The notes below the pieces were generated by a model. The model saw only the letters and a list, made by a program, of their open reading frames with translations, had not been told where the DNA came from and made no database searches. From positions 1 through 64,000 of the forward strand of contig JADZAQ010000051.1 of the NCBI GenBank assembly GCA_020852555.1: DNA of 64,000 nucleotides, in the 5' to 3' direction. Both the position numbers and the translations under genes were made by a program. This DNA is from Burkholderiales bacterium. Its GTDB lineage: Bacteria > Pseudomonadota > Gammaproteobacteria > Burkholderiales > Casimicrobiaceae. Of the stretch, positions 47,726 through 64,000 are shown piece by piece (positions within the stretch are counted from its first letter, which is position 1; each line of letters starts with the position of its first letter).

Positions 47726-47802
47726 CGGGGTGTGGCGCAGTCCGGTAGCGCAGAGCGTTTGGGACGCTAAGGTCGCAGGTTCGAATCCTGTCACCCCGAC
47801 CA
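47726..47802 (+). tRNA. tRNA-Pro, anticodon TGG
   Basis: 77-base tRNA with encoded CCA. Acceptor CGGGGTG pairs with CACCCCG; the D arm reads GCGCAGTCCGGTAGCGC; the T arm CGCAGGTTCGAATCCTGT carries GTTCGAATC. The anticodon loop TTTGGGA gives anticodon TGG, reading CCN codons for Pro. Position 27-43 would be a G-A mismatch, leaving a 4-bp anticodon stem. The overall sequence is close to the known E. coli tRNA-Pro(TGG). Confidence 0.95.
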
Positions 47803-47845: not shown

Positions 47846-49129
47846 CTATCGATGGCCGTATTCGCGAATATCGTCGATCGCCTTGCCGTCGGCAGGCAGG
47901 TCGCCGGGTGCGCGGACGACGACATCGCCGCGCAGCTTGGTGATTTCCCGGATGGTCGTCGATATCGCCGCGACATCGATGCCCTCATCCGCTCCGAGTT
48001 CGACGTGCAGCGACATCCGGTCGAGTCCGCCCTCGCTGCCCACGATCAGTCGCGCCCTTCGGATCTGCGGGTGACGCTCGACGATCGCCGCGACCTGTGC
48101 CGGATGGACGAACATGCCGCGCACCTTGGTCGCCTGGTCAGCACGGCCCAGCCAGCCCTTGATGCGCGTGTTCGTCCGCCCGCAGGCGCTGGCACCCGGG
48201 AGGACCGCGGACAGGTCGCCGGTGCCGAACCGGATCAGCGGGTACTCCTCGTTGTGGAGCGTGGTGACGACAACCTCGCCGATTTCCCCGGGGTCCGCGG
48301 GGTCTGGCGTCCCCGGGCGCAGGATTTCCAGGAGGATGCCTTCGTCGACGATGAATCCCTCGCGTGCGTCGCTCTCGTAGGCGATGGCGCCGATATCGGC
48401 GGTGCCGTACGCCTGGAAGGCATCGATACCACGCTCGCGAAACTCTTTGGCCAGTATCTCCGGCAGCGCCTCCCCCGAGACGAGCGCCTTGCGCAGGTGC
48501 CGCAGGTCGATCCCCAGCGCATCGGCACGATCGACGATGATCTTCAGGAACGACGGGGTCCCGATGTAGCCGTTGGGCTTGAGCAGCGCCATCGCCTGCA
48601 ACTGCTGTTCCGTCTGCCCGACGCCGCCGGGAAACACGGTGCAGCCGAGCGCGATTGCTCCACCCTCGAACATCGATCCGGCGGGAGTGAAGTGGTACGA
48701 GAAGCAGTTGTGCGCGAGGTCGCCCGCACGAAAGCCGGCCGCGAAGAGAGTGCGGGCGAACCGCCAGTAATCGACCCGCCGACCCTCCGGCTCGAAGATC
48801 GGGCCGGGGGACGCGAAGACGCGCGCGGCCTCGCCCCAGCGCACGGTGGCGTATCCGCCGAATGGGGGCGCAGACTTCTGCAGCGCGATCAGGTCGGACT
48901 TGCGCGTGACGGGGATCGCGGCAAGGGCCTGACGATTCGTGATTGTGCGAGGATCGACTTCGGCGAGGAGGCGTGCGTACGCCGGCGCGCGTGCCTTCGC
49001 GTGCGCGATCTGTCGAGGCAGGCGCGCCAGATGCTCGTGCTCCCGGATCTCGGGGTCTCGCGTCTCCAGGGCGTCAAGGTACTCGGGCATGGCACGTGGT
49101 ATTCGTTTCCGGGAAGCAGTGGACAGCAT
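47846..49129 (-). CDS. Phenylacetate-CoA ligase-like adenylate-forming enzyme
   Basis: 427-residue ANL-superfamily ligase of the PaaK type, shorter than typical acyl-CoA ligases. Recognisable parts are the AYGTADIGAIAYES adenylate motif, LIRFGTGDLS, and a basic hinge (KGWLGRADQATKVRGMFV). These enzymes activate aryl or branched carboxylic acids as CoA thioesters. The start at 49129 gives a TGATG overlap with livF, showing translational coupling; the ATG at 49090 is an alternative. It is the most distal gene of the acyl-CoA operon. Substrate unknown. Confidence 0.85.
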   Translation of the reverse strand: MLSTASRKRIPRAMPEYLDALETRDPEIREHEHLARLPRQIAHAKARAPAYARLLAEVDPRTITNRQALAAIPVTRKSDLIALQKSAPPFGGYATVRWGEAARVFASPGPIFEPEGRRVDYWRFARTLFAAGFRAGDLAHNCFSYHFTPAGSMFEGGAIALGCTVFPGGVGQTEQQLQAMALLKPNGYIGTPSFLKIIVDRADALGIDLRHLRKALVSGEALPEILAKEFRERGIDAFQAYGTADIGAIAYESDAREGFIVDEGILLEILRPGTPDPADPGEIGEVVVTTLHNEEYPLIRFGTGDLSAVLPGASACGRTNTRIKGWLGRADQATKVRGMFVHPAQVAAIVERHPQIRRARLIVGSEGGLDRMSLHVELGADEGIDVAAISTTIREITKLRGDVVVRAPGDLPADGKAIDDIREYGHR

Positions 49130-49986
49130 CAGGTGAGCCAGCGCTTGCGTCGTCGATAGTGCTTGACGTCGCGAAATGACTTGCGGCCGGCCGCCGACAG
49201 CCCGAGGTAGAACTCCTTGACATCTTCGTTGCCGGCAAGGGCATTCGCCTCGCCATCCATGACGACGCGACCGTTCTCGAGGATGTAGCCGTAGTCGGAT
49301 ACGCGCAGCGCCGCCATCGTGTTCTGCTCGGCGATCAAGAACGAGACACGTTCCCTCGCGTTGAGATCGCGGACGATCTCGAAGATCTCCTCGACGACCT
49401 GGGGGGCGAGCCCCATCGACGGCTCGTCGAGCAGGACCAGCGACGGCGCTGCCATCAGCGCCCGACCGACGGCGATCATCTGCTGCTCTCCGCCGGAGGT
49501 GTATCCGGCCTGGCTGCTGCGGCGCTGCTTGAGCCGCGGGAAGTAGTGGTAAACCTTGTTGAGGTCGTCCTTGAGGCCCTTCCCCGATGCGCGACGCGCG
49601 AACGCGCCGGTCAGCAGGTTCTCCTCGACGGTGAGGTGGGGAAAGCAGTGCCGTCCTTCCATCACCTGGCACACGCCCAATCCCACCAGGTCGTCCGTAC
49701 CGAGCCGATCGACCCGCTGACCCCTGTATTCGATCGTGCCCTTCGTCACCGCGCCGCGCTCGGCCTTGAGCAGATTCGATATCGCCTTCAGTGTCGTGCT
49801 TTTTCCGGCGCCGTTGGCGCCGAGCAGCGCCACCATCTTTCCGGTGGGCACTTCGAGTGATACCCCCTTCAGGACAAGGATCACGTGGTCGTAGACGACC
49901 TCGATGTTGTTGACCAGGAGATGCGGCACCACGTCGGTGCGCGAGGGCGTGGCCGGCGGCGTCGTCATGGCAGGTGTCGAACTCAT
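49129..49986 (-). CDS. livF: Branched-chain amino acid-type ABC transporter ATPase LivF
   Basis: 285-residue ATPase of a Liv-type importer. Walker A is GANGAGKST, signature TSGGEQQM, Walker B LVLLDEPSMGLAP. It pairs with LivG from the next gene upstream and with the LivH/LivM permeases encoded on the other strand at 60-62 kb. The linker after the ATPase is extended at the N-terminus (MSSTPAMTTPPATP). The start at 49986 is the first ATG after which conservation begins. Confidence 0.9.
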   Translation of the reverse strand: MSSTPAMTTPPATPSRTDVVPHLLVNNIEVVYDHVILVLKGVSLEVPTGKMVALLGANGAGKSTTLKAISNLLKAERGAVTKGTIEYRGQRVDRLGTDDLVGLGVCQVMEGRHCFPHLTVEENLLTGAFARRASGKGLKDDLNKVYHYFPRLKQRRSSQAGYTSGGEQQMIAVGRALMAAPSLVLLDEPSMGLAPQVVEEIFEIVRDLNARERVSFLIAEQNTMAALRVSDYGYILENGRVVMDGEANALAGNEDVKEFYLGLSAAGRKSFRDVKHYRRRKRWLT

Positions 49987-50003
49987 GTGCGCCGATCGAA
50001 TGG

Positions 50004-50795
50004 CTAGTGCGAGACACCCAGGTAGGCATCGATCACCGCCGGATTCGAGCGGACTTCGTCGGGAGTGCCGTCGCCGATCTTCTTGCCATAGTCGAGGACA
50101 ACGACGCGGTCGGAGATGTCCATGACGACCCCCATGTCGTGTTCGATCAGCACGATCGTGGTGCCGTACTGCTCGTTCACGTCGAGCACGAATCGGCACA
50201 TGTCCTGCTTCTCCTCGACGTTCATCCCAGCCATCGGCTCGTCGAGGAGCAGCATCGACGGCTCGGCGGCGAGCGCCCGGGCGAGTTCGACGCGCTTCTG
50301 CAGGCCGTACGGCAGACGTCCAACCGGCGTCTTGCGTATGTGCTGTATCTCGAGGAAGTCGATCACCTCTTCGACCTTGCGCCGGTTGCTGAGCTCCTCG
50401 CGGCGGGCACGGCCAATGTGGATCGCCTGCTCGAGGATCGTCGCCCGCATCGTGAGGTTGCGCCCGGTCATGATGTTGTCGAGCACCGTCATCCCCTTGA
50501 ACAGCGCGATGTTCTGGAACGTCCGCGCGATCCCGTACGCGGCGGCCTGATGGGGAACCATGTCGCGTCGCATCTGGCCGCGGAAGGTGATCGTCCCTTG
50601 CTGGGGCTGGTAGACGCCGTTGATCACATTGAGCATCGAGCTCTTGCCCGCGCCGTTGGGTCCAATGATCGCCCGGATCTCGTGTTCGCGGACGTCGAAG
50701 CTTATCTCGGTGAGCGCCTTGACTCCGCCGAAGGCCAGCGAAATTCGCTCGAGCGCGAGGATCACGCCGCCGATGGTGCGCGCGTCGTTTGCCAT
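50004..50795 (-). CDS. livG: Branched-chain amino acid-type ABC transporter ATPase LivG
   Basis: 263-residue ATPase with Walker A GPNGAGKSS, the LivG insertion ARTFQNIALF, signature LPYGLQKR and Walker B MLLLDEPMAG. The start at 50795 (MANDARTIGG) is 4 bases after the upstream ligase gene stop. It forms a heterodimer with LivF. Location inside an acyl-CoA catabolic operon suggests that the transported molecule is the acid degraded here and not an amino acid. Confidence 0.92.
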   Translation of the reverse strand: MANDARTIGGVILALERISLAFGGVKALTEISFDVREHEIRAIIGPNGAGKSSMLNVINGVYQPQQGTITFRGQMRRDMVPHQAAAYGIARTFQNIALFKGMTVLDNIMTGRNLTMRATILEQAIHIGRARREELSNRRKVEEVIDFLEIQHIRKTPVGRLPYGLQKRVELARALAAEPSMLLLDEPMAGMNVEEKQDMCRFVLDVNEQYGTTIVLIEHDMGVVMDISDRVVVLDYGKKIGDGTPDEVRSNPAVIDAYLGVSH

Positions 50796-50799
50796 GACG

Positions 50800-52743
50800 T
50801 CAGGCTGCCTTGCGCATGGCCGTCGCCGGAAACGTCCTGGCCGTCTCGATCCGCAGGTCGGCCGCGACCATCCCGGTGCGGCCATCCTCGAACTTGACCT
50901 GGGTCTCGATGTGCTGGCTCGTGCGTCCGGCATAGAGCGCGTCGATCAGCACCCGGTACTTTTCGGCGATGAATCCGCGACGCACCTTGCGGGTGCGCGT
51001 CAGCTCGTCGTCATCGGGATCGAGCTCCTTGTGCAGGATCAGGAAGCGGTGCACCTGGGAGGAGGCGAGCGCAGGGTCCTGCGCGAGCTCGGCGTTCACG
51101 CCATCGATGTATTCCCTGACCAGGTCGTAGACGTCGGGCTTTTGCGCGAGGTCGGTGTACCCGGCATAGGCAAGGCCGCGCCGCTCGGCCCAGTTGCCCA
51201 CCGAGTCGATATCGATGTTGATGAATGCGCAGACCTCGTCACGGTCGTGACCGAACGCCACGGTCTCCTTGACGTGAGGCGAGAACTTGAGCTTGTTCTC
51301 GATGTAGTTCGGCGCGAACAGCGCGCCGTTGGCGAGCTTACCGACGTCCTTCGCGCGATCGACGATCTTCAGGTGGCCGTCGCCGTCGAAGTATCCGGCG
51401 TCGCCGGTGTGGAAGAAACCCTCCGCATCGATAGCCTCCGCGGTCGCGTCCGGCCGTTTGTAGTATCCCTGCAGCAGCATCGGCCCGCGGACGAGGACCT
51501 CGGAGTTGCTCGCGATCTTGAGCTCGACGCCGGGGGCCGGCTTGCCGACGGAATCGAGCTTGACGTCGCCGTCGCTCTGGAGGCAGGTGTAGCCGCAGGT
51601 CTCGGTCGAGCCGTAGAACTGCTTGATATTGATTCCAATCGAGCGGTAGAAGCGGAAGAGGTCGGGGCTGATCGCGGCGCCGGCCGTGTACGCGACGCGG
51701 ATTCGACTCAGCCCGAGGACGTCGCGCAGTGGCGCATACACCAGCAGATTTCCGAGCCAGTACTTGACCCGGTCGACGAGGCGAACTTTCTTGCCGTCGA
51801 GCAACTCGGCGCCGTACCGCCTGGCGATCGACATGCAGCTGCGAAACATCCACTTCTTGAGGGCGCACGCGTCGTCCATGCGGATCATGACCTGGGTGAG
51901 GAGATTCTCGAAGACCCGCGGCGGCGCGAAGTAATACGTGGGTCCGATCTCCCGCAGGTCGGTCGTGACCGTGGCGCCGGATTCCGGGCAGTTGATGCTG
52001 AAGCCGGCGACCAGCCACTGCGTGTACGAGAACAGAAAATCACCCACCCACGCCATGGGCAGGTAGCAGAGCACGCGATCGCGCGCCTGGAGGCCGTCGA
52101 ATTCGCACCCCGCGCGCCCGACCATCATGAACGAGCCGTGCGTCTGCAATACGCCCTTCGGCTTTCCGGTCGTTCCGGAGGTGTAGAGGATGATCGCGAT
52201 GTCGTCCGCCTTCCCGGCGGCGAGCTCACGCTCGTAGAACCCCGGATTCGCACGGTCGAAGGTCCGTCCCTGCTTCTGAATGGTATCGAGAGCCACGAGC
52301 CCCTGGTAATTGCGAAGGCCGCGAGGATCGTCGTAGAAGATGTGCTTGAGCGAGGGGACCTGGTCGAGCGATTCGACGAGCTTGTCCACCTGCTCCTGAT
52401 CCTCCGCGATGGCGTACGCGATGGCGCCGTCGTTGAGCACGTACGCGAGCTCGGCCATCGGCGCATCCTGGTACATCGGCACGGGGATCCCACCCAACGC
52501 CTGGACGGCAAGCATCGTCCAGTACAGCCGCGGTCGGTTGTCGCCGATGATCGCGAGGTGCATGCCTCGCTGGAACCCGTTGGCGGCGAGCCCGCATGCG
52601 AGTGCGCGCACTTCGTCGGCGACCTGGCGCCACGTCCACACCTGCCAAATGCCGAGATCTTTCTCGCGAATGGCCGGTTGCTCGCCTCGCGTCTTCGCCT
52701 GGTGCAGCAGGAGGCGCGGCAACGTTTCGATCGCTTCGCTCAT
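50800..52743 (-). CDS. Acyl-CoA ligase (AMP-forming), long-chain/FadD15-like
   Basis: 647-residue ANL-superfamily ligase. P-loop YTSGTTGKPKGV, adenylate motif YGSTETCGYT, and hinge motif GDAGYFDGDGHLKIVDRAKDV. Size and C-terminal segment (TRTRKVRRGFIAEKY) resemble FadD15-type long-chain acyl-CoA synthetases. It is probably the main activating enzyme for the imported acid. livG follows by 4 bases. The two different ligases in one operon could serve the parent acid and a pathway intermediate. Confidence 0.88.
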   Translation of the reverse strand: MSEAIETLPRLLLHQAKTRGEQPAIREKDLGIWQVWTWRQVADEVRALACGLAANGFQRGMHLAIIGDNRPRLYWTMLAVQALGGIPVPMYQDAPMAELAYVLNDGAIAYAIAEDQEQVDKLVESLDQVPSLKHIFYDDPRGLRNYQGLVALDTIQKQGRTFDRANPGFYERELAAGKADDIAIILYTSGTTGKPKGVLQTHGSFMMVGRAGCEFDGLQARDRVLCYLPMAWVGDFLFSYTQWLVAGFSINCPESGATVTTDLREIGPTYYFAPPRVFENLLTQVMIRMDDACALKKWMFRSCMSIARRYGAELLDGKKVRLVDRVKYWLGNLLVYAPLRDVLGLSRIRVAYTAGAAISPDLFRFYRSIGINIKQFYGSTETCGYTCLQSDGDVKLDSVGKPAPGVELKIASNSEVLVRGPMLLQGYYKRPDATAEAIDAEGFFHTGDAGYFDGDGHLKIVDRAKDVGKLANGALFAPNYIENKLKFSPHVKETVAFGHDRDEVCAFINIDIDSVGNWAERRGLAYAGYTDLAQKPDVYDLVREYIDGVNAELAQDPALASSQVHRFLILHKELDPDDDELTRTRKVRRGFIAEKYRVLIDALYAGRTSQHIETQVKFEDGRTGMVAADLRIETARTFPATAMRKAA

Positions 52744-52818: not shown

Positions 52819-53607
52819 CTACGCGAAGCGTGAGAAATCCGGCGCCCGCTTGGCGAGGAACGCGGCGAACGCCTCCTTCGCCTCGGGTGACTGCAGCCGG
52901 CGCTGGAACTCGTGTGATTCCGTTCGGATCGCCTCCTCGACCTGGCTAGCGATCCCGCCGCGCATCAGCGCCTTCGACGCCCGCAGGGCCGCGGGCGGCT
53001 TGGCCGCGAGCTTGCGAGCCTGCGCGTGCGCATGGGGTAGCACGTCGCCGTCGGGCAATACCGCACTGATCATCCCGCAAGCCTCGGCCCGGGCGGCGGA
53101 GAACGGCTCGCCGAGGAGAAGCAGCTCGGCGGCCCGGGCGCGGCCCGCGACGAGCGGCAGGAGGAGGCTGGAACCCGCTTCCGGGCAGAGGCCGAGATTC
53201 ACGAAGGGGAGCGCGAACGTCGCTCCCTGCCCCGCATAGACGAGATCGCAATGCAGGAGCAGCGTCGCACCCACGCCGACGCAGGCGCCATTCACGGCCG
53301 CCACGATGGGCTTCGTCGCGCGGCTGATCGCGCGCACGAAACGGTACGCGACGTGCTCGTCATCGAGCGCCGGATCCTGCAGGAAGTCCTTGAGGTCGTT
53401 CCCGCTCGTGAAGACGTCGGGCTGGCCGTGCAGGAGGATCACCCGGATCTGCGCGCTTTGCGCGGCGAGGTCGATCGCGTCCGCGAGCGCCTGGTACATG
53501 GCACCGGTGAGGGCATTCTTCTTCTCGGGGCGCTTGATCTCGACGTGCAGGATGCCATCGTCGACTGCGGTCAGGATGTTGCCCGGGCCTTGCTCGTTCG
53601 AAGCCAT
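52819..53607 (-). CDS. Crotonase-family enoyl-CoA isomerase/hydratase
   Basis: 262-residue crotonase. The oxyanion-hole loop FTSGNDLKDF (about 66-75) is present. In the classical hydratase, Glu144 and Glu164 (rat numbering) are catalytic; here the equivalent positions read T115 (GVGATLLL) and F135 (ALPFVNLG). Instead E143 lies in GLCPEAGSS, the site used by delta3,delta2-enoyl-CoA isomerases of the ECI2/PECI type. So double-bond migration is more likely than hydration. Start at 53607 (MASNEQGPGN). It lies between the mutase small subunit and the acyl-CoA ligase. Confidence 0.82.
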   Translation of the reverse strand: MASNEQGPGNILTAVDDGILHVEIKRPEKKNALTGAMYQALADAIDLAAQSAQIRVILLHGQPDVFTSGNDLKDFLQDPALDDEHVAYRFVRAISRATKPIVAAVNGACVGVGATLLLHCDLVYAGQGATFALPFVNLGLCPEAGSSLLLPLVAGRARAAELLLLGEPFSAARAEACGMISAVLPDGDVLPHAHAQARKLAAKPPAALRASKALMRGGIASQVEEAIRTESHEFQRRLQSPEAKEAFAAFLAKRAPDFSRFA

Positions 53608-53626: not shown

Positions 53627-54040
53627 TCAGCCCGCGACCACGCGCGGATGACGCGCATGGTCGCGAATGAACCCGACGATCGACTCCGCGGCCGATCCCG
53701 GGCCGAAGATCTCGCTGACACCCAGCTCCTTCATCGGCCCGAAATCGCGCTCGGGGATCACGCCGCCGAACATGACGAGGACATTCCCCTTGCCGAGCTC
53801 CTTCAGTCGCCGGGTGACCTCCCGCGCCACGGGCAGGTGCCCCTCGACGGAACTCGAGACTCCGATGACATCGACATCCTCCTGGATCGCGGCATCGAGG
53901 ATCTCCCGTGGTTCGAGGAAGTTCATGAAGATGACCTCCATGCCTGCTTCGCGCAGCTTGGTCGCGAGGTAGCGGACCCCCCGGTCGTGGGCGTCCATCG
54001 TCGTCTTACCAAGCAGCACACGAATGATGCGTTCTTCCAT
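53627..54040 (-). CDS. Adenosylcobalamin-dependent mutase, small (B12-binding) subunit
   Basis: 137-residue Rossmann-like B12 domain. The base-off/His-on motif DxHxxG is present as DAHDRG (about 16-21), with SVEGHLPV and FGGVIPERD completing the cofactor pocket. The protein is the separate small subunit of a two-part mutase, like IcmB or HcmB, and works with the large subunit encoded 71 bases upstream. Confidence 0.92.
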   Translation of the reverse strand: MEERIIRVLLGKTTMDAHDRGVRYLATKLREAGMEVIFMNFLEPREILDAAIQEDVDVIGVSSSVEGHLPVAREVTRRLKELGKGNVLVMFGGVIPERDFGPMKELGVSEIFGPGSAAESIVGFIRDHARHPRVVAG

Positions 54041-54111: not shown

Positions 54112-55866
54112 TCAATGGGGTGGCATCCATCCCAGGTGTTTCTTGAGGACGCCCATCAGTTCGCCGGTCGTCGCATCCGCGTCCGAGGCATCGATCATCG
54201 CCGGCAGCAGGACGCCGATCTCGCCCGTGTTGAAGCGAATTGTTGCCTCCTCGAGCTGGGCCATCGCCGCCTCCCACCTGGCGCGATCGCGGGTCGCGCG
54301 CAGCGCCTGGATGCGCTCGATCGCAATGCGCTCCGAATCGGGATTCACCTTGAAGACCTCGACGTCCTGGACGTCATCCGACTGGTACTTGTTGACACCG
54401 ACGAGCATGCGCTCCTTCATGTCGACTTGGTCGCGCCAGCGCACGGCTGACGCCTCTATCTGCTCGCGCACGTAGTCGTGACACTTGTGGTACCCGCCAC
54501 GCTTCTCGACGGCGTCGATAATGGCGATGGCGGCCGCCTCGATCTGGTTGGTCAGCGCCTCGACGTAGTACGAACCGCCGAGCGGGTCCGCCACGCGCGT
54601 GATGCCGCTCTCCTCCTGGATGATCTGCTGGACCCGCAGCGCCATCGTTGCCGAGTGCTCGGTGGGGATCGCGAGCGCTTCGTCGAACGTGCTGACTTCC
54701 ATGGCCTGCACGCCGGCGAGCGCGGCGCCGAACGCGTGCAACGTGGTGCGGATGAGGTTGTTGACCGGCTGCTGCGCGGTCAGCACGGCGCCGGAGGTGT
54801 GTGTGTGGATCCGCACGTGCATGCTGCGGGGATCGCGGGCACCGAGTTCGTGGCACTTCCTCGCCCAGATCCGGCGCAGCGCCCGAATCTTGCAGACTTC
54901 CTCGAAGAAGTCGTTCGCCTGCGAGATCTGGAAGCCGAAGCGATGCAGGAATTCGTCGGGCTCGAGGCCCTTCGCGATGCAGTTGCGCGCGTAATCGATG
55001 CCGGCCGCGACCGAGAAGGCGACCTCCTGCACGGCGGTCGATCCGGCTTCTTCCATCCCGTAGCCGAAGATGTTGACCGTGTTCCACTTGGGCATGCGCT
55101 TGGCGCAGAACGACACGATCTCGGCAGCGAGGTCCATGCCGGCTTTCGGAGGGAAGCACGTCATCCCCGTATATGCGCTCTGGTAATACCAGTTCATCGA
55201 GTTGCCGCCGAGCTTCTCCCACGGCACGCCGCGCCGCCGGGCGTACGCGAGATAGTGCGCGAGCACGGGGAGGTTTTCGTAGTACGAGATGTGCACGACG
55301 TTCATCTTGTCGAGCGGCAACCCGTCGAACAGCCGAGCGTTGTCCTCGCGCGTGTACACCGCCATGCCGCATTGGCCGACGCGGCCTTCCGCAGCGGGGT
55401 GGTCGGGGTCGATCCCCTCGTGCGAGACGAGGTCGTAGACGAGGTTGTAGAACGTGTTGCCAAAGTACCCGGTCATTCCCTGGCTTTGCAGGTAATCCAT
55501 GCGCCGGCGGGTCTCTTCGGGCAACCCGTATCCAATCACGGGCTGGTTCGCCCAGGGCATGAACTGGTATTGGGCCGCGTAAAGCCCGCGCGTGAATGGA
55601 AAGATCCCGGGCGCGCCTATCGACTGGAAGTCGAGCGCGGCGACGTCATGAGGAAAGTAAGCCGGCTTCAGCGGAAGGCCGGAGTCCGTGTGCCGCTTAT
55701 AGGCCGACGCGTCCACGCCGAACTTCTTCGCGATGGCGTCGAATTTATGGCGCCATTCGCGTTCCAGTTGCCGCGTCGCTTCGATAAACTCGGCGGTGAA
55801 TTGCGCAGGCTGTTCGGCTGCCGCACTTGCCGGTACGTTGGTTGCCTCTGCAACAGGGGTCGCCAT
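54112..55866 (-). CDS. Adenosylcobalamin-dependent acyl-CoA mutase, large subunit (atypical)
   Basis: 584-residue catalytic TIM-barrel subunit of the methylmalonyl-CoA mutase superfamily. Landmarks: PGIFPFTRGLYAAQY, GIDPDHPAAEGRVG, EAGSTAVQEVAFSVAAGIDY, RIHTHTSGAVLTAQQPVNN, and VADPLGGSYYVEALT. Methylmalonyl-CoA mutase holds the substrate carboxylate with Tyr89 and Arg207 (Propionibacterium numbering); by eye these align with V110 (ANQPVIGYG) and about T233 (AYTGMTCFPP). Isobutyryl-CoA mutase (Phe80/Gln198) and 2-hydroxyisobutyryl-CoA mutase (Ile90/Gln208) do not fit either. The substrate is thus a different acyl-CoA, unknown. The two-subunit architecture agrees with non-methylmalonyl mutases. 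Confidence 0.85.
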   Translation of the reverse strand: MATPVAEATNVPASAAAEQPAQFTAEFIEATRQLEREWRHKFDAIAKKFGVDASAYKRHTDSGLPLKPAYFPHDVAALDFQSIGAPGIFPFTRGLYAAQYQFMPWANQPVIGYGLPEETRRRMDYLQSQGMTGYFGNTFYNLVYDLVSHEGIDPDHPAAEGRVGQCGMAVYTREDNARLFDGLPLDKMNVVHISYYENLPVLAHYLAYARRRGVPWEKLGGNSMNWYYQSAYTGMTCFPPKAGMDLAAEIVSFCAKRMPKWNTVNIFGYGMEEAGSTAVQEVAFSVAAGIDYARNCIAKGLEPDEFLHRFGFQISQANDFFEEVCKIRALRRIWARKCHELGARDPRSMHVRIHTHTSGAVLTAQQPVNNLIRTTLHAFGAALAGVQAMEVSTFDEALAIPTEHSATMALRVQQIIQEESGITRVADPLGGSYYVEALTNQIEAAAIAIIDAVEKRGGYHKCHDYVREQIEASAVRWRDQVDMKERMLVGVNKYQSDDVQDVEVFKVNPDSERIAIERIQALRATRDRARWEAAMAQLEEATIRFNTGEIGVLLPAMIDASDADATTGELMGVLKKHLGWMPPH

Positions 55867-55908: not shown

Positions 55909-57102
55909 TCAGGCGACCAATTCCAGGACTGCCGCCGTACCGATGCCGCCGCCGCCGCCGATCGTCGCGACGCCGAGGCGCGTCTCCGTGCGCTGCATCG
56001 CGTGCATCATCGTCACGATCGTGCGGACGCCGCTGCAGCCCACCGGATGACCGAGCGCGATGCCGCCACCGAGCGGATTCACGTGATCGAGGCCGATGTC
56101 GAGTTCGCGGCACGAGGAGAGCACGACCGACGCGAACGCTTCGTTGATCTCCCACCAGCCGATGTCGGTTGGCTTGAGGCCGGCGCGCTCGAGCGCACGC
56201 CTGGCCGCCGGTCCGGGGCTCATGCAGATGAGCCGGGGATCGACCCCGGCGCGCGCGGTCGAGCGCACGCGCAACACGGGCTTCACGCCCAGTTCGGCCG
56301 CCTTCTCGCGCGTCATCAGGAGCACCGCCGCCGCCCCATCGCTCACTCCCGACGCGTTGCCCGCCGTCACGGTGCCGTCGTCGCCGAATACCGGGTGCAG
56401 CTGCGAGAGCGTGGCGAGGCTGGTGTCGCGTCGCGGGTGCTCGTCCTGGGTGAAGTCGACCGCGCCCTTGCGGCCTTTGACCGTGAGCGGGACGATCTCG
56501 TCGCGGAAACGCCCCTGGTCGATGGCGGCGATCGCCAACTGGTGCGATCGCAGTGCGTACTCGTCCTGCTCGGCACGCGAGAGTCCGTAGACCTTGGCGA
56601 CGTGGTCGGCGGCCATGCCCATGCTGAATCGCCCGAACCGGTACGTGGAGGCCGACCAGGTCGATTCGTCGAACTGGTCGACGACTTCGCTGTTCCCCCG
56701 GCGGGTGCCCCAGCGGTGGCCGTGCAGAAGGAACGGCACGCCGCTCATGCTCTCCGTGCCGGCGGCGATGGCGACATCCGAGTCACCGTGCGCGATCTCC
56801 CGGACGACCGAGTTGAATGCCTCCAGCGAGGAGCAGCAGGCGACGTTGATCGCGGCGCCCGTGACGGAGAACGGGAATCCGCTCTCGAGGGCGCAGAAGC
56901 GCCCGATGTTGAGCGCCTGCGACGTCTGATAGACCTGGCCGACGACGACGGTATCCACCATCGCGGGGTCGATGTTCGCCCGGCGCACGACCTCGCGCAC
57001 CGGAGTGCGCACCAGCTCGTGCGCCGGAACGTCGCGAAGCGTTCCGCCGAAGGAACCTTGTGCCGTCCGACAGCCGGCGACCACCACCACTTCTCGTGTC
57101 AT
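55909..57102 (-). CDS. Thiolase-family acetyl-CoA acyltransferase (lacks second catalytic Cys)
   Basis: 397-residue thiolase. The nucleophile is C89 in NVACCSSLEAF (usual NxxCxSG), with NEAFA and GHPVGCSG also present. The second catalytic Cys, normally in LCIGGGMG, is replaced by T380 in VATIGGGGGIG. Without that base the enzyme may still make or cleave C-C bonds slowly, or may use another substrate class. ATG overlaps the stop of the upstream dehydrogenase gene (ATGA). 42 bases separate it from the mutase gene. Confidence 0.85.
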   Translation of the reverse strand: MTREVVVVAGCRTAQGSFGGTLRDVPAHELVRTPVREVVRRANIDPAMVDTVVVGQVYQTSQALNIGRFCALESGFPFSVTGAAINVACCSSLEAFNSVVREIAHGDSDVAIAAGTESMSGVPFLLHGHRWGTRRGNSEVVDQFDESTWSASTYRFGRFSMGMAADHVAKVYGLSRAEQDEYALRSHQLAIAAIDQGRFRDEIVPLTVKGRKGAVDFTQDEHPRRDTSLATLSQLHPVFGDDGTVTAGNASGVSDGAAAVLLMTREKAAELGVKPVLRVRSTARAGVDPRLICMSPGPAARRALERAGLKPTDIGWWEINEAFASVVLSSCRELDIGLDHVNPLGGGIALGHPVGCSGVRTIVTMMHAMQRTETRLGVATIGGGGGIGTAAVLELVA

Positions 57103-58043
57103 TTCTTGCCTCCGTGCGGCTCGATTCCGAAGTAGTCATACCAGCCCCCCTTGCTGCCCGGCTTGAGTTCCGGCGCGCCGCGGAAGCCTGCCATGAAGAC
57201 TTTGCGTGCGATGGGGGGAATCGCATACCGCTCGCCGAGCGTCTCGTGCAGGTAGTCTTGCGCGTGGTACCAGGCATCGAACGATGCTGTCTTGTCGAGG
57301 AGTTCGAACACGCCCATCGGCCATCCGAGTCCGGTCTTGACCATCTGGTCGACCTCGTGGATCCCACAAAGCCCCTCCTGCACCGCGCGCATCGCCTCAG
57401 CGGCGAAGATGTTGACGAAGCGGGTCATGAAGAATCCCGGGGCGTCGCGTACGATTACCGGCGTCTTTCCGATGCTCGCCAGGAAATCGACGCATCGGGC
57501 CGCGACCCAATCGTGGGTGCGATCGGCCCGGACGACCTCGATCAGCGGCATTACGTTGGAGGGATAGAACCAATGCGTCCCGATCATGCGTCCTGGCTGT
57601 TCGAGCGCGCCACTGAGCTCGGCGATCATGATCGACGACGTGTTGCTGGCGATCACGGCGTCAACGGGCGCAGCCGCCTCGATTTCCCGGAGGACGGCGT
57701 GCTTCAACGTCACGACCTCCGGTACCGTTTCGAAGACGATCTGCGCATCGCGAACACCTTCGCCGATGTCGAGGGTCGAGTGAATCCGCGCGATCGTTGA
57801 CTCGACGGCGCCGGCATCGAGGCGTCCTTTACGGACGGCGGCCTCCAGGCCGAAGGGTCCCTTGCGAATCAGCTCGAGCCCGTGGTCGAGCGTCTCCTGC
57901 CGGCGCGCGATTAACCGGACCTGCGCGTGCGGCGCGCCGAGCAGACAGGCGAGCACGATGCCGTGTCCCATCGATCCGCCGCCACCGACGACGGCGATGC
58001 GCGCGACCGGCGCGGACGCCGTGGACCGTGTGTTGCCGCTCAT
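57099..58043 (-). CDS. 3-hydroxyacyl-CoA dehydrogenase
   Basis: 314-residue NAD-dependent dehydrogenase of the short, free-standing kind. NAD binding is VGGGGSMGHGIVLACLL, the catalytic His is in THWFYPSNVMPLIEVV, and SNTSSI lies between. KGLGWPMGVF-like TGLGWPMGVFELLDK supports the C-terminal domain. The start at 58043 overlaps the meaB stop by 4 bases (ATGA) and its stop overlaps the thiolase start, so all three are tightly coupled. Confidence 0.92.
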   Translation of the reverse strand: MSGNTRSTASAPVARIAVVGGGGSMGHGIVLACLLGAPHAQVRLIARRQETLDHGLELIRKGPFGLEAAVRKGRLDAGAVESTIARIHSTLDIGEGVRDAQIVFETVPEVVTLKHAVLREIEAAAPVDAVIASNTSSIMIAELSGALEQPGRMIGTHWFYPSNVMPLIEVVRADRTHDWVAARCVDFLASIGKTPVIVRDAPGFFMTRFVNIFAAEAMRAVQEGLCGIHEVDQMVKTGLGWPMGVFELLDKTASFDAWYHAQDYLHETLGERYAIPPIARKVFMAGFRGAPELKPGSKGGWYDYFGIEPHGGKK

Positions 58044-59059
58044 GCGCCGCTCTCCCCGATGCGGCCATCGGTCGGAACGTGCCGGGTCAGCGCACTCGCC
58101 GCGTCGGCGGCATTCATCTCGCGGCTGGCCACCGCATCGGCGAGGCGACGGAGCATGCCGGAGCGTGCGGCTCTCGCCAGCGGAACGTCGACGAATGTCG
58201 TTTGAAGCGACGCGCGTATCTCGGCGATCGCCCGCTCGTGCTCGAGTGCGTGTAGTCGATTGGTCTCGCGCAGGTAGCGAGCGTGCGCCCCGATCGCCTC
58301 GGCGAGCTCGCCGATGCCTTCGCCTCGGTCCGCGATGGTCGTGACGACGGGAATCTTCCAACCCGGGGTGCGATCTTCGGCGCGCGTCGACAGCTCCCGC
58401 AGATACCTCCGCTTCGCGTCTGCGTCGGGCAGGTCGCCCTTGTTGATGCAGAAGATAGCGGCGATCTCGAGCACACCCGCCTTCATCGCTTGGATCGAAT
58501 CCCCGAGGCCCGGGGCCTCCACGACCACGGGCGTGTGTGCGACCTGCCAGACATCGACTTCGCTCTGTCCGATTCCCACCGTCTCCACGATGATGGGGTC
58601 GTAGCCGACGGCATCGAGGACGCGTACGAAATCGTGCGTGGTGCGGGCGAGTCCGCCGAGGAAGCCGCGGCTCGCCGCGCTGCGGATAAAGACGCCTTCG
58701 TGCGCGCTCGCACGGCTCATGCGCACGCGGTCGCCGAGCACCGCGCCGCCGGTGAACGGGCTGCTCGGATCGACGGCCACGACACCGACGCGCCGTCCCT
58801 GGTTCGCGAAGTGGATCGCGAGCTCGTTCACGAGGGTCGACTTTCCCGAGCCCGGCGGGCCGGTGATGCCGATGATGTGGGCGACACCACTGCGCGAGTG
58901 CAGCCGGCCGAGCAGGGCGCGCGCCGTCTCCCCTCCTCTTTCGGCGATGGTCAGCGCCTCGCCCAGCGGTACCTTCGCGCCGGAGACGAGCGCCTCGAAC
59001 CATGCGGAAGGTAGATCGACCTCGTGCGTCACACCTGGCTCCTCGTCAGTTACAGCCAT
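58040..59059 (-). CDS. meaB: MeaB-type G-protein chaperone for B12-dependent mutase
   Basis: 339-residue SIMIBI GTPase that protects and reloads adenosylcobalamin mutases. P-loop GPPGSGKST, DPSSPFTGGAVLGDR switch region, VETVGIGQSEVDV (G3-type motif) and INKGD (NKxD). It is the first gene of the minus-strand operon, behind the operator at 59139-59158. Its presence is independent evidence that the downstream mutase is a working B12 enzyme. Confidence 0.94.
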   Translation of the reverse strand: MAVTDEEPGVTHEVDLPSAWFEALVSGAKVPLGEALTIAERGGETARALLGRLHSRSGVAHIIGITGPPGSGKSTLVNELAIHFANQGRRVGVVAVDPSSPFTGGAVLGDRVRMSRASAHEGVFIRSAASRGFLGGLARTTHDFVRVLDAVGYDPIIVETVGIGQSEVDVWQVAHTPVVVEAPGLGDSIQAMKAGVLEIAAIFCINKGDLPDADAKRRYLRELSTRAEDRTPGWKIPVVTTIADRGEGIGELAEAIGAHARYLRETNRLHALEHERAIAEIRASLQTTFVDVPLARAARSGMLRRLADAVASREMNAADAASALTRHVPTDGRIGESGA

Positions 59060-59115: not shown

Positions 59116-59158
59116 AGTATGAATCGCGCCCGTAAATAAATCAAGCGCTCGCTCGAAT
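59116..59158 (-). promoter_or_regulatory. meaB operon promoter with TetR-type operator
   Basis: On the minus strand TTGATT (59144-59139) and CATACT (59121-59116) are 17 bases apart. The -35 lies inside the palindrome TCAAGCG-CT-CGCTCGA (59141-59156, 6 of 7 positions symmetric). The same CAAGCGCT core followed by GAAT recurs at 59901-59917. tetR begins 51 bases to the right, so this is a divergent operator of the kind TetR repressors use. Confidence 0.6.
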
Positions 59159-59209
59159 TCTCGACCGGCGTTCGCCGCGGACCCGCCGTCGCGGTATGAT
59201 GCAGCCGCG

Positions 59210-59797
59210 ATGAACACGCTCGACGACTCGACCAGACGGCGGGAACTGCGAACCGCAGCGGCGCGGCTGTTTCGCAAGGTCGGGTATCCGCAGGCGACGG
59301 TTCGGGACATCGCCAAGGCCGTCGGCATGCAGTCGGGCAGCATCTTCTATTACTTCAAGACCAAGGAGGACATCCTGGTCGAGGTGATGAACGAGGGGAT
59401 GCGCCAGTTCATCGAGGCGGCGTGCGTCGCGATGGACGAGGCGACGCCGCCGCGGATGAAGCTGCGTACGCTGCTCGTCCGCCACCTCATGACGCTGCAC
59501 AGTCGGAACAACGACGAGTTGGCGGTGGTTCTCTCCGAATGGCGGTCGCTGTCGGCGCGGTCGCGCCGGCACGTCGTCGCGCAGCGCGACGAGGTCGAGG
59601 CCGCGTGGAACCGGGTTCTGCAGGAACTGGCCCAAGCGCATCTCATCAGCGGCGATATCGCCATCCTTCGTCTGGCGATCCTCGGCGCCGCCAACTGGTC
59701 TTTGCAGTGGTACGACAAGAAGGGCAAGCTCAGCATCGATGAGCTGGCCGACCAGTTGCTCGATCTGTTCGTCCCTACGCCGGCGCGACGAACGTAG
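59210..59797 (+). CDS. TetR-family transcriptional regulator
   Basis: 195-residue one-component repressor. The helix-turn-helix is in the first 50 residues (AARLFRKVGYPQATVRDIAKAVGMQSGSIFYYFKTKEDILVEV). The C-terminal ligand domain is of the size that binds acyl-CoAs in many catabolic clusters. It lies between the divergent mutase operon and the livHMK genes and probably controls both. TATGAT at 59195-59200 with TTCGCC 18 bases upstream may be its promoter; the mRNA leader would be only a few bases. Confidence 0.9.
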   Translation: MNTLDDSTRRRELRTAAARLFRKVGYPQATVRDIAKAVGMQSGSIFYYFKTKEDILVEVMNEGMRQFIEAACVAMDEATPPRMKLRTLLVRHLMTLHSRNNDELAVVLSEWRSLSARSRRHVVAQRDEVEAAWNRVLQELAQAHLISGDIAILRLAILGAANWSLQWYDKKGKLSIDELADQLLDLFVPTPARRT

Positions 59798-59900
59798 GCC
59801 GCGCCGGATCGGCGCGCCTGCCTTCGCTCCGCGGCATCCCCGTTCTTCCGATGCGCGGCCAGCGCGCCCGGCCGCGCCCGTGACCGCACCGGGATTCGAG

Positions 59901-59937
59901 CAAGCGCTTGACTGAATCGCTCGGCCGGTGCTAGTGT
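59901..59937 (+). promoter_or_regulatory. livHMK promoter with TetR-type operator
   Basis: CAAGCGCTTG (59901-59910) is a perfect 10-bp palindrome. It overlaps TTGACT (59908-59913), and TAGTGT (59932-59937) lies 18 bases further on, a reasonable sigma-70 promoter. The motif CAAGCGCT-N-G-N3-GAAT at 59901-59917 repeats the one in front of the meaB operon. Confidence 0.6.
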
Positions 59938-60034: not shown

Positions 60035-60916
60035 ATGACATTCTTCGTCGAAGTCCTGGTGGCAGGCCTGCTCGCCGGCGTGATGTACTCGCTGGTCGCG
60101 CTCGGCTTCGTGCTCATCTACAAGGCGTCGGGTGTCTTCAATTTCGCGCAGGGTGCGATGGTGCTGTTCGCGGCGCTGTCGTTCGTCAATTTCCGCGCCT
60201 GGGGCGCTCCGTTCTGGCTCGCGCTGGTGCTGGCGATGGCGGTGATGGTGGTGCTCGCCTTGCTGGTCGAGCGGCTCGTCCTGCGCCCGCTCGCCAACCA
60301 GCCGCCGATGTCGCTGTTCATGGCCACCATCGGATTGACGATCGTGATCGAGGGGGTCGGCCAGTTGGTGTTCGGATCCAGGACGCACCGGCTCGATCTC
60401 GGGATCAAGGATGTCCCGATCGAGATGCTCGGCATCGGGATCAGCAAGTTCGACCTGTTCGCCGCGGCGGTGGCGGGCTCGCTGGTCCTCGCCCTCGTCC
60501 TGTTCTTCAATCGCACCGCCACCGGGCGCGCGCTGCGCGCCGTCGCCGACGATCACCAGGCCGCGATGTCGATCGGCATACCGCTGACCCGGATGTGGCG
60601 CTACGTCTGGGCCCTGTCGGGCGGCGTCGCGTTGATCGCCGGACTGCTGTGGGGTTCGCGCCTGGGCGTGCAGTTCGGGCTCGTCGTGGTCGCGCTGAAG
60701 GCACTGCCGGTGTTGATCCTCGGGGGTTTCACCTCCATCGCCGGAGCCATCGTCGGCGGGCTGATCATCGGCGCGGCGGAGAAGCTCGCGGAGATCTACC
60801 TGGGCGGCGCCATCGGCGGAGGGATCGAGAACTGGTTTCCGTATGTCCTGGCGATGCTCTTCCTCATCGTGCGGCCGAACGGATTGTTCGGCGAGCGCCG
60901 AATCGAGCGGGTCTGA
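60035..60916 (+). CDS. livH: Branched-chain amino acid-type ABC transporter permease LivH
   Basis: 293-residue polytopic permease of the LivH family with eight to nine spans. VLIYKASGVFNFAQGAMV is the family start motif and VVALKALPVLILGGFTSIAGAIVGG the conserved late loop (EAA-like). GGAAGGAG precedes the ATG at 60035, so I use it rather than upstream starts. livM follows after 3 bases. Confidence 0.93.
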   Translation: MTFFVEVLVAGLLAGVMYSLVALGFVLIYKASGVFNFAQGAMVLFAALSFVNFRAWGAPFWLALVLAMAVMVVLALLVERLVLRPLANQPPMSLFMATIGLTIVIEGVGQLVFGSRTHRLDLGIKDVPIEMLGIGISKFDLFAAAVAGSLVLALVLFFNRTATGRALRAVADDHQAAMSIGIPLTRMWRYVWALSGGVALIAGLLWGSRLGVQFGLVVVALKALPVLILGGFTSIAGAIVGGLIIGAAEKLAEIYLGGAIGGGIENWFPYVLAMLFLIVRPNGLFGERRIERV

Positions 60917-60919
60917 GCC

Positions 60920-61987
60920 ATGTTCTATCGCGAAGCGAGTCAGTACAAGACGAGCTACGGCACCGACCAGCAGGTGTTTCCGATCCTGCAGGACCGGGTC
61001 GGTTTCCTGGGGCTGATGGCGATCGCGTTCGTCGTGATTCCGGTGGTGGGCAACGACTACTGGTTCAACGGTCTCCTCATCCCCTTCCTCATCCTCGCCC
61101 TCGCAACACTCGGCCTCAACATCCTCACGGGGTTCGCCGGGCAGATCTCGCTGGGATCGGCCGGCTTCATGGGCGTGGGAGCCTTCGCGGCGTACAACTT
61201 CGCGCTGCGCATCGACGGCCTGCCCATCCTCGCGAGCTTCGTGCTCGGGTCGATGTGCGCGGCGGTGATCGGCGCGTTGTTCGGGCTGGCCTGCCTGCGG
61301 ATCAAGGACTTCTACCTGATCGTCGCCACGCTCGGCTCGCAGTTCTTCATCGAGTGGGCGCTCACCAAGTTCGGGTGGCTCACCAACTACAGCTCCTCCG
61401 GCGTGATCAGCGCGCAGAAGATCGTGATCCTCGGGGTGACGTTCGACTCCCCGCTGCGCCGGTACCTGCTCGTCCTCGCCATCGTCACCGTGATGGCGCT
61501 CGCGGCGAAGAACATGATGCGCGGGGCGTTCGGCCGAAGCTGTATGGCGGTCCGCGACATGGACGTCGCGGCGGCGGTCATCGGGATCCGGATCTTTCGC
61601 GTCAAGCTTGCCGCATTCGTGGTCAGTTCGTTCTACTGCGGCATGGCGGGAGCGCTGTGGGCGTTCGCGTACGTCGGGACGGTCGATCCCGAGGCCTTCG
61701 GCCTCGAGCGGTCGCTGCAGATCTTGTTCATGGCGATCATCGGCGGCCTGGGCAGCATCATGGGCAGTTTCCTGGGGGCGGCGTTCATCATGCTCCTGCC
61801 GATCTTCATGAACCTGGTCGGCTCGACGGTGTCGGGTAAGGCGATCGATACCAGCGTGGTCGCGAATGTCGAGCAGGTCGTGTATGGCGTACTGATCATC
61901 TGGCTGCTGGTGGTCGAGCCGGGAGGACTGGTCCGGCTCTGGCAGATCGGCAAGGAGAAGCTCCGGCTGTGGCCGTTCCCCCGGTAA
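60920..61987 (+). CDS. livM: Branched-chain amino acid-type ABC transporter permease LivM
   Basis: 355-residue permease with about ten spans, the usual partner of LivH. NILTGFAGQISLGSAGFMGVGAF and GIRIFRVKLAAFVVSSF are family motifs, with LFMAIIGGLGSIMGSFLGAAF near the end. Together with LivH, LivG, LivF and the LivK binding protein, it makes a complete five-part importer, split over two operons. Confidence 0.93.
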   Translation: MFYREASQYKTSYGTDQQVFPILQDRVGFLGLMAIAFVVIPVVGNDYWFNGLLIPFLILALATLGLNILTGFAGQISLGSAGFMGVGAFAAYNFALRIDGLPILASFVLGSMCAAVIGALFGLACLRIKDFYLIVATLGSQFFIEWALTKFGWLTNYSSSGVISAQKIVILGVTFDSPLRRYLLVLAIVTVMALAAKNMMRGAFGRSCMAVRDMDVAAAVIGIRIFRVKLAAFVVSSFYCGMAGALWAFAYVGTVDPEAFGLERSLQILFMAIIGGLGSIMGSFLGAAFIMLLPIFMNLVGSTVSGKAIDTSVVANVEQVVYGVLIIWLLVVEPGGLVRLWQIGKEKLRLWPFPR

Positions 61988-62113
61988 GGGGTCGTCCGTG
62001 GCTGCGAGAAGGGTTGTGGAGCTTGGAGCGGGATCGCCCGCCCGCGGCGTTGTCGGTGTCCGGGCCTGGATGCAGCGGATCCGCGATGGGTCAATCTTCT
62101 GGAGGAGATCACG

Positions 62114-63451
62114 ATGAACATGGGACGTTCCACCAAACGCGTGCTGGCGCTGGTTGCATTTAGCGTCGGCGCCGCAGCTTCGACGGCGACGCTCGCCGCC
62201 GCCAACGAGCAGTTCTTTCCGATGATCGGATGGCGCACCGGGCCGCTGACGCCGCTCGGTGTGAATCTGGCCGGTGGCTGGATCGATTACATGGACCTGC
62301 TCAACAAGCGGGACGGCGGCATCAATGGCGTCAAGCTGACCTGGGAAGAATGCGAGACCGCGTACAAGGTCGACCGCGGCGTCGAATGCTACGAGCGCCT
62401 CAAGAAAGGCGGACCCAGCGGAGCGTCGGCATTCAACCCGATCAGCACTCAGGTCACGTACGCACTGCTCGACCGGACCAACACCGATCACATACCGATC
62501 GTCACCATCGGGTCCGGCCGGACCGACGCGACCGACGGCCGAGTGTTTCCGTACATCTTTCCGCTTGGTACGAACTACCTCTCGACGAACACGGTGAAGA
62601 TCAAATTCATCGGTTCGAAAGAGGGAGGGATGGACAAGCTGAAGGGGAAGAAGATCGTCAACCTGCACATGGACTCGGCGGCGGGCAAGGAGACGATCCC
62701 GATCCTCGAGGCGCAGGCCAAGAAATATGGCTTCGAGCTCGTCAACATCGCGGTTCCGATGCCCGGCAGCGAGCAGCAGGCGGCGTGGCTGGAAATCCGT
62801 CGCCTGAAGCCCGACTGGGTGATCCTGCGCGAGTGGGGCGTCGCTCCCGCGGTCGCGCTGAAGACGGCGGAGAAGGTGGGCTTTCCGGCCAACCGCATCG
62901 TCGCGGTTCCGTTCGCGGGCAGTGAAGACGACCTCACGGCTGCCGGCGACGCCGCGAAGGGCGTCTACGTCGTGCACCCGATGCCGCCCGGCGAGTTTCC
63001 CGTCACGCAGGAAATCAAGAAGTACCTCTACGGCGGAGGCAAGCGCGGCAACCTCGACGACGTCTCCCGCATGGGCACCGTGTTCTACAACATGGGATTG
63101 ACCTACGGCGTGGTGAACACCGAGGCGGTTCGAGTCGCCCAGCAGAAGTTCGGCAAGAAGCCGCTGACCGGCGAGCAGATCCAGTGGGGCCTGGAGCACC
63201 TCAATCTCGACGAGAAGAGGTTGAAGGAGCTCGGCGTCTGGGGGCTCGTGCAGCCGATCAAGTCGAGCTGCTCGGACCACGAGGGCGGCGGCAGCGCCAA
63301 GGTGTTCCAGTGGGACGGCGCCAAGCTCGTGCCCGCTTCGGACTGGATCCAGGGAGATCGTGCGCTCACCCGCGCGCTGGTGGAGGAGTCCTCCATGAAG
63401 TACGCGAAGGAGAAGGGAATCACCCCGCGCGATTGCTCGAAGGAGAACTGA
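62114..63451 (+). CDS. Periplasmic substrate-binding protein of a Liv-type ABC transporter
   Basis: 445-residue type I periplasmic binding protein. Signal peptide about 1-29 (MNMGRSTKRVLALVAFSVGAAASTATLAA). The mature part has the two-lobe pattern of LivK-like proteins (GWRTGPLTPLGVNLAGGWIDYMDLLNKRDGGINGVKL). Relatives often bind aromatic or branched carboxylates instead of amino acids. GGAGGAG (62101-62107) is a strong Shine-Dalgarno. C-terminal KEN end. Confidence 0.9.
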   Translation: MNMGRSTKRVLALVAFSVGAAASTATLAAANEQFFPMIGWRTGPLTPLGVNLAGGWIDYMDLLNKRDGGINGVKLTWEECETAYKVDRGVECYERLKKGGPSGASAFNPISTQVTYALLDRTNTDHIPIVTIGSGRTDATDGRVFPYIFPLGTNYLSTNTVKIKFIGSKEGGMDKLKGKKIVNLHMDSAAGKETIPILEAQAKKYGFELVNIAVPMPGSEQQAAWLEIRRLKPDWVILREWGVAPAVALKTAEKVGFPANRIVAVPFAGSEDDLTAAGDAAKGVYVVHPMPPGEFPVTQEIKKYLYGGGKRGNLDDVSRMGTVFYNMGLTYGVVNTEAVRVAQQKFGKKPLTGEQIQWGLEHLNLDEKRLKELGVWGLVQPIKSSCSDHEGGGSAKVFQWDGAKLVPASDWIQGDRALTRALVEESSMKYAKEKGITPRDCSKEN

Positions 63452-63609: not shown

Positions 63610-64000
63610 GTGCTGATCGAGACCATACGGATCGAGGACGATCTCATCCAGTTCCGCACCAACCGGCGCGGGTGGCCGTCGTCGTGCAACGTGTACCTCG
63701 TGCGCGACGGATCGCGAGCCGTGCTCGTCGATGCGGGCCTGGGGGTCGATCCGGACCTCCACGCCCTGTTCGATGCGGTGGTCGCAGCGTTGGGTACGTG
63801 GAACCAGGGGCCGGGTGACCTCCACACCATCCTTCTCACGCACACGCATACCGACCATGCCGGCGGAGCCATTCAGCTCGCGCGGAAGACCGGTGCGCGG
63901 GTGCTGCTGCCCAGGCTGGGCTGGTCGCAGGCATCCGATCGCGGCTGGCAGGTGCACCACATCCTCCCCGACGAGGTCGCGCGCGAGATCGAGCTCGCTC
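63610..64000 (+). CDS. Metallo-beta-lactamase-fold hydrolase (3' truncated by window edge)
   Basis: The first 130 residues of an MBL-fold protein read from the GTG at 63610, which follows an in-frame TAG at 63604-63606. The metal site HTHTDH is present (H78, H80, D82, H83). The preceding LVDAGLGVDPDL is typical. The rest of the gene lies outside the window. A thioesterase-like or lactone-hydrolase role in the nearby catabolic locus is possible but unproven. Confidence 0.8.
   Translation, partial: MLIETIRIEDDLIQFRTNRRGWPSSCNVYLVRDGSRAVLVDAGLGVDPDLHALFDAVVAALGTWNQGPGDLHTILLTHTHTDHAGGAIQLARKTGARVLLPRLGWSQASDRGWQVHHILPDEVAREIELA

Follow-up and report, generated by a model that had tools for sequence, protein, structure and literature searches.

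In the window (the whole 64,000-nt stretch of DNA that was analysed), a tetR gene lies between the two arms of a gene cluster for carboxylic-acid breakdown: a minus-strand arm, which starts with a meaB-type GTPase gene and runs through acyl-CoA genes and both subunits of a B12-dependent mutase to livG, livF and a PaaK-like CoA ligase, and a plus-strand arm of livH, livM and livK (Table 1). Gaps within the minus arm are at most 75 bp, and a tRNA-Pro gene (47726-47802) is found 43 bp from its probable end. The livH-livM-livK order is kept in two relatives (G006 and G019). The plus arm possibly extends, judging from translations, to a metallo-beta-lactamase-fold gene and, past the window, to the large biotin-carboxylase-like gene that follows it.

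Table 1. Features of the tetR locus, with positions in the window.
Feature	Positions	Strand	Basis
livG, livF, PaaK-like CoA ligase; probable minus-operon end	47846..50783	-	translations
AMP-forming acyl-CoA ligase	50800..52743	-	Pfam AMP-binding
enoyl-CoA hydratase-like	52819..53604	-	translation; homologues in ortholog loci
acyl-CoA mutase small (B12-binding) subunit	53627..54040	-	
acyl-CoA mutase large subunit, divergent, Gly at catalytic His position	54112..55866	-	
thiolase	55909..57102	-	Pfam, NCBIfam
3-hydroxyacyl-CoA dehydrogenase-like	57099..58043	-	translation; 4-bp overlap with neighbours
meaB-type GTPase, first minus-arm gene	58040..59059	-	Pfam MeaB, TIGR00750
probable meaB-operon promoter: TTGATT 59144-59139, 17-nt spacer, CATACT 59121-59116	59116..59144	-	sequence reading; conserved in G006
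Operator 1 (predicted), AAATAAATCAAGCGCTCGCTCGAATT	59134..59159		meaB-tetR gap, over meaB -35; motif scans
tetR, TetR_N + TetR_C_24, 195 aa, proposed repressor of both arms	59210..59797	+	Pfam
Operator 2 (predicted), GATTCGAGCAAGCGCTTGACTGAATC	59893..59918		5' of livH, over livH -35; motif scans
probable livH-operon promoter: TTGACT 59908-59913, 18-nt spacer, TAGTGT 59932-59937	59908..59937	+	sequence reading
livH, livM, livK (ABC permeases, binding protein), plus arm	60035..63451	+	livH/livK Pfam; livM translation
metallo-beta-lactamase-fold gene, possible plus-arm continuation	63610..64000	+	translation

Related sequences flank tetR on both sides, CAAGCGCTCGCTCGAAT at positions 59142-59158 and CAAGCGCTTGACTGAAT at 59901-59917. 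A sequence-only reading of this DNA had described them as copies of a shared palindrome, with tetR between them and each over a plausible -35 element, of meaB on the minus strand and of the liv genes on the plus strand. The positions, the placing of tetR and the promoter elements were all borne out, but the shared CAAGCGCT is not itself palindromic. The distinctive unit is a longer, imperfect palindrome of 24-26 bp, roughly ATTCRAGCRAGCGCTTGATTSAAT, present in two copies, with extended outer arms ATTCR...YGAAT; 8 of 13 dyad pairs are matched in the copy centred at 59146/59147 and 10 of 13 in that centred at 59905/59906. Because CAAGCGCT occurs nine times in the window (2.75 expected; none of 100 shuffles reached nine), the 8-mer alone is weak evidence.

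The -10 boxes of both arms are weak by consensus, yet they are conserved in close relatives. That of livH is of the extended type, TGC preceding TAGTGT, and its TTGA and TGCTA are conserved in G006 and G019. A strict sigma-70 scan called neither the meaB nor the livH promoter, so that both rest on reading and conservation. The divergent gap between tetR and meaB is 150 bp, with the candidate operator on the -35. A divergent neighbour less than 200 bp from a regulator predicts regulation (PMC3511530), and a local TetR repressor would be expected to have such a neighbour and an operator at its promoter; here the divergent gene is within 200 bp and the predicted operator overlaps its promoter. 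The tetR gene has a -10-like TATGAT at 59195-59200 on the plus strand, some 50 bp away from the centre of the operator and 9 bp before the ATG, which suggests that the tetR mRNA may be leaderless or nearly so. This element is kept as TATGAT or TATACT in G006, G019 and G003.

A pattern scan flagged 59141-59156 on the minus strand, with a 6-pair stem and a T-rich tail, as a possible transcription terminator hairpin. We give this explanation hardly any credence and rejected it, as the palindrome lies upstream of meaB, over its -35; moreover, the stem is short, the livH copy was not flagged, and in G003 (GATCGAGGTG) the T-rich tail is absent.

That the two sites are operators is consistent with how they stand out in sequence scans. 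With a matrix built from orthologous loci only, leaving out the window's own sites and the close relative G006, they scored 36.1 and 33.2 bits. The runner-up among distinct window sites reached 11.5, and 12 Mb of second-order Markov sequence gave nothing above 23.8. The 3.83-Mb genome (assembly 94% complete) was scanned with a sequence-only covariance model made from other genomes' sites, the two under study being excluded. In this motif search, which the sequence-only reading had proposed as a check, both sites came out on top (20.9 and 20.5 bits) among the 150 candidates that were scored out of 5,486 from a first look. The others formed a plateau beginning at 12.9 bits, and no second regulated locus was found among these candidates. 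The pair at the head of this plateau (12.9 and 12.7 bits, in C67) was taken for background; it is in a region of translation genes, read from their translations as infC, rplT and pheS. Four copies of the perfect core CAAGCGCTTG are present in the 3.83 Mb, versus 18 for the reversed control. The three copies outside the locus were rejected as operators because of poor full-matrix scores: one inside dnaK (C113), one inside a mutase-homologous stretch (C22) and one in C272.

Might the two sites nevertheless owe their likeness to chance, through a common -35 element TTGA within GC-rich sequence? CTTGA in each site does belong to the -35, and the 8-mer recurs within the window. However, the score gap to the genome background argues against chance, as do conserved blocks of 18-20 columns among diverged flanks; already contradicted by conservation, this explanation is in our judgement extremely improbable.

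Conservation of the predicted operators follows the regulator. All six genomes with a tetR identity of at least 51%, our own included, have CAAGCGCT[T/C]G upstream of this gene (G006, 89%; G019 and G003, about 61%; G034, 56%; G035, 51%); in G034 the site is close to the tetR start. On the meaB side, four aligned genomes have the block AATTC(G/A)AGCGAGCGCTTGAT in common amid diverged flanks. On the livH side, three aligned regions share ATTCGAGCAAGCGCTTGA and the GGTGCTA of the extended -10, with 18 consecutive identical columns in the three genomes. The site before livH is kept in G006 and G019, even though some 6 kb separate livH from tetR in G019. The best-scoring sites of G006, G019 and G003 also fall within the orthologous cluster, and in G019 they precede tetR/meaB, a biotin carboxylase, a thiolase/acyl-CoA dehydrogenase pair and livH. 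The top site of G035 directly precedes a livK-like gene; G037 (48% ortholog) has sites ahead of an acyl-CoA dehydrogenase gene and between its etfB and maoC-type genes. A lack of enrichment upstream of acyl-CoA genes had been named beforehand as telling against the proposed regulon, and in these relatives the sites do precede acyl-CoA genes. Among about 25 more distant tetR homologues (42-48%), only a few have a close upstream match, so the linkage of motif and tetR is clear only for near orthologs.

The relatives also show variations on this arrangement. The G019 block between tetR and livH (L074 7858-13380) has two extra candidate operators and, from translations, genes for biotin carboxylase, SCP-x-type thiolase, acyl-CoA dehydrogenase, enoyl-CoA hydratase and a biotin carrier; this inserted block may show missing steps of the pathway. 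G003 has two operator copies, 21 bp apart, between meaB and tetR (L073 11478-11525). Near the tetR ortholog of G035, four livK-like genes lie in one 8-kb stretch (L076 3574-11857), with 57-60% identity to the window livK.

The regulator itself scored 55.8 bits for the HTH domain, Pfam TetR_N (cut-off 24), and 88.5 bits for the ligand domain, TetR_C_24 (cut-off 26.4), which places it in this branch of the family. Its closest solved structure is 4mxm/4mo7, and other structural relatives are KstR2 (4w97), FadR (3whb) and Mce3R. It is not called a Bacillus FadR equivalog, NF053878 giving 69 bits where the NCBIfam cut-off is 200.

It could be argued that the sites are real operators of another regulator of the same specificity, such as a FadP- or AtuR-like TetR, and that the local TetR binds elsewhere, as the CAAGCGCTTG class is common to several TetR proteins (KstR2 and RdmA/AtuR). 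L061, a paralog of LPGS type with 28% identity, carries CAAGCGCTTG upstream too, and the motif is therefore not unique to the clade of tetR orthologs. However, strong sites are found together with tetR orthologs, and the four congeners that lack a close one (G014, G005, G007 and G009) have nothing scoring above 15.0 bits; their best match, in G007, is inside coding sequence. A common recognition helix, A(V/F)G-x-QSGS-(I/L)-F-Y, is seen in the orthologs that have a CAAGCGCTTG site, whereas L057, the only other homologue in its own genome at E<=1e-15, has an LPGS helix (GMLPGSLYY) and a different upstream palindrome, TACCAAACAACTGTTTGTTT; the local TetR is for these reasons the best candidate, and we consider control by another regulator improbable. 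L057 (G000 contig C68) belongs with L043, L045, L056 and L058 to a paralogous subgroup of about 35% identity with the LPGS helix, in which the upstream palindrome TACCAAACAACTGTTTGTTTTGG is conserved.

Our results thus show a motif that is conserved, is unique to these two sites in the genome-wide scan and occurs together with tetR orthologs. We consider it very likely that the two sites are operators of the TetR encoded between them, as the sequence-only reading had proposed; genome rank, conservation and co-occurrence with the orthologs support that proposal. From sequence we infer binding and repression of both arms, with an acyl-CoA or acid inducer. A TetR dimer, or a pair of dimers, would sit on each palindrome of about 26 bp over the -35 box. 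There it would keep RNA polymerase from transcribing the two divergent arms, meaB-hcdh-thiolase-mutase-ech-ligase-livGF-paaK and livHMK, and it would perhaps repress tetR as well. The likely inducer, which would release TetR, is a CoA thioester or acid of the pathway, taken up through the Liv-type transporter and activated by the ligases of the cluster. With operon lengths as predicted, the regulon is one of two arms, of ten and at least three genes, and perhaps includes tetR. The earlier figure of at least 13 genes is thereby reached, but the regulon looks local, with two sites, not genome-wide.

The mutase is a more unusual part of the locus than the operators. In its large subunit, the catalytic His of human MCM and 2-hydroxyisobutyryl-CoA mutase (GYHMQEAG/GYHISEAG) is replaced by Gly at residue 270 (GYGMEEAG). 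There is a gap or Gly at the position of the carboxylate-binding Arg, and a short insertion, YFGNTF, comes before FYNLVYDL. Both the Gly and the insertion are identical in the G006, G019 and G034 orthologs. The large subunit is rare, with one other among 399 genomes of the order at E<=1e-200, and no further orthologs were found in the phylum at E<=1e-170 beyond its own one. Tentatively, and with some doubt, we suggest that the circuit could be a dedicated sensor of an undescribed pathway built around a mutase lacking the catalytic His and the carboxylate-binding Arg, with an insertion near the pocket. If this were true, TetR would be induced by a CoA thioester with no known role in signalling.

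We believe that these predictions are useful in several respects. They provide an uncharacterised TetR_C_24 regulator with operators and so with a regulon that can be tested, and the proposed two-site circuit would link a Liv-type importer with a B12-mutase acyl-CoA pathway. Furthermore, the predicted operators are ready probes for the inducer, which in turn would point to the substrate of the mutase.

Several known systems resemble this one, and the proposed mechanism comes close to those of KstR2 and RdmA. FadP is mainly betaproteobacterial, and we regard kinship of the window TetR with it as a lead only; the FadP motif was not found in our literature search. Both are of the TetR family and connected with acyl-CoA catabolism, but FadP controls about 18 genes per genome through many sites (PMC5343134), in contrast to the local two-site regulon proposed here. 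The KstR2 repressor of Mycobacterium and Rhodococcus is likewise of the TetR family, with a small local regulon of acyl-CoA genes adjoining the regulator and an operator, AnCAAGnnCTTGnT, verified by gel shift (EMSA) (PMC3068626). Each window site is a palindrome of this operator class, one mismatch from AnCAAGnnCTTGnT. However, the window motif has its extended outer arms, the cluster comprises a B12 mutase and a Liv transporter and not cholesterol genes, and sequence similarity is low: KstR2 (4w97) matches the window TetR at E 1.7e-11 and 47 bits, significant but below many others. Since published orthologues have >50% identity and cholesterol genes, this weak match and other gene content do not make the window TetR a KstR2 ortholog. 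In Pseudomonas, RdmA/AtuR has EMSA-verified operators, AGCAAGCGCTTGG and CCAAGCGCTTGCT, close to the -35/-10 of an acyl-CoA operon that runs divergently, and RdmA is released by the fatty acid DSF (PMC9973270). The likeness extends to a TetR repressor, a divergent acyl-CoA operon and a window motif that matches AGCAAGCGCTTGG; the differences are that RdmA/AtuR has its two operators in a single intergenic region and governs the dmg/atu gene set. By analogy with these systems, the window regulator is, on our prediction, a local acyl-CoA-type repressor of a known kind: the operator class, the regulator family and the architecture are already known, and the gene set is new.
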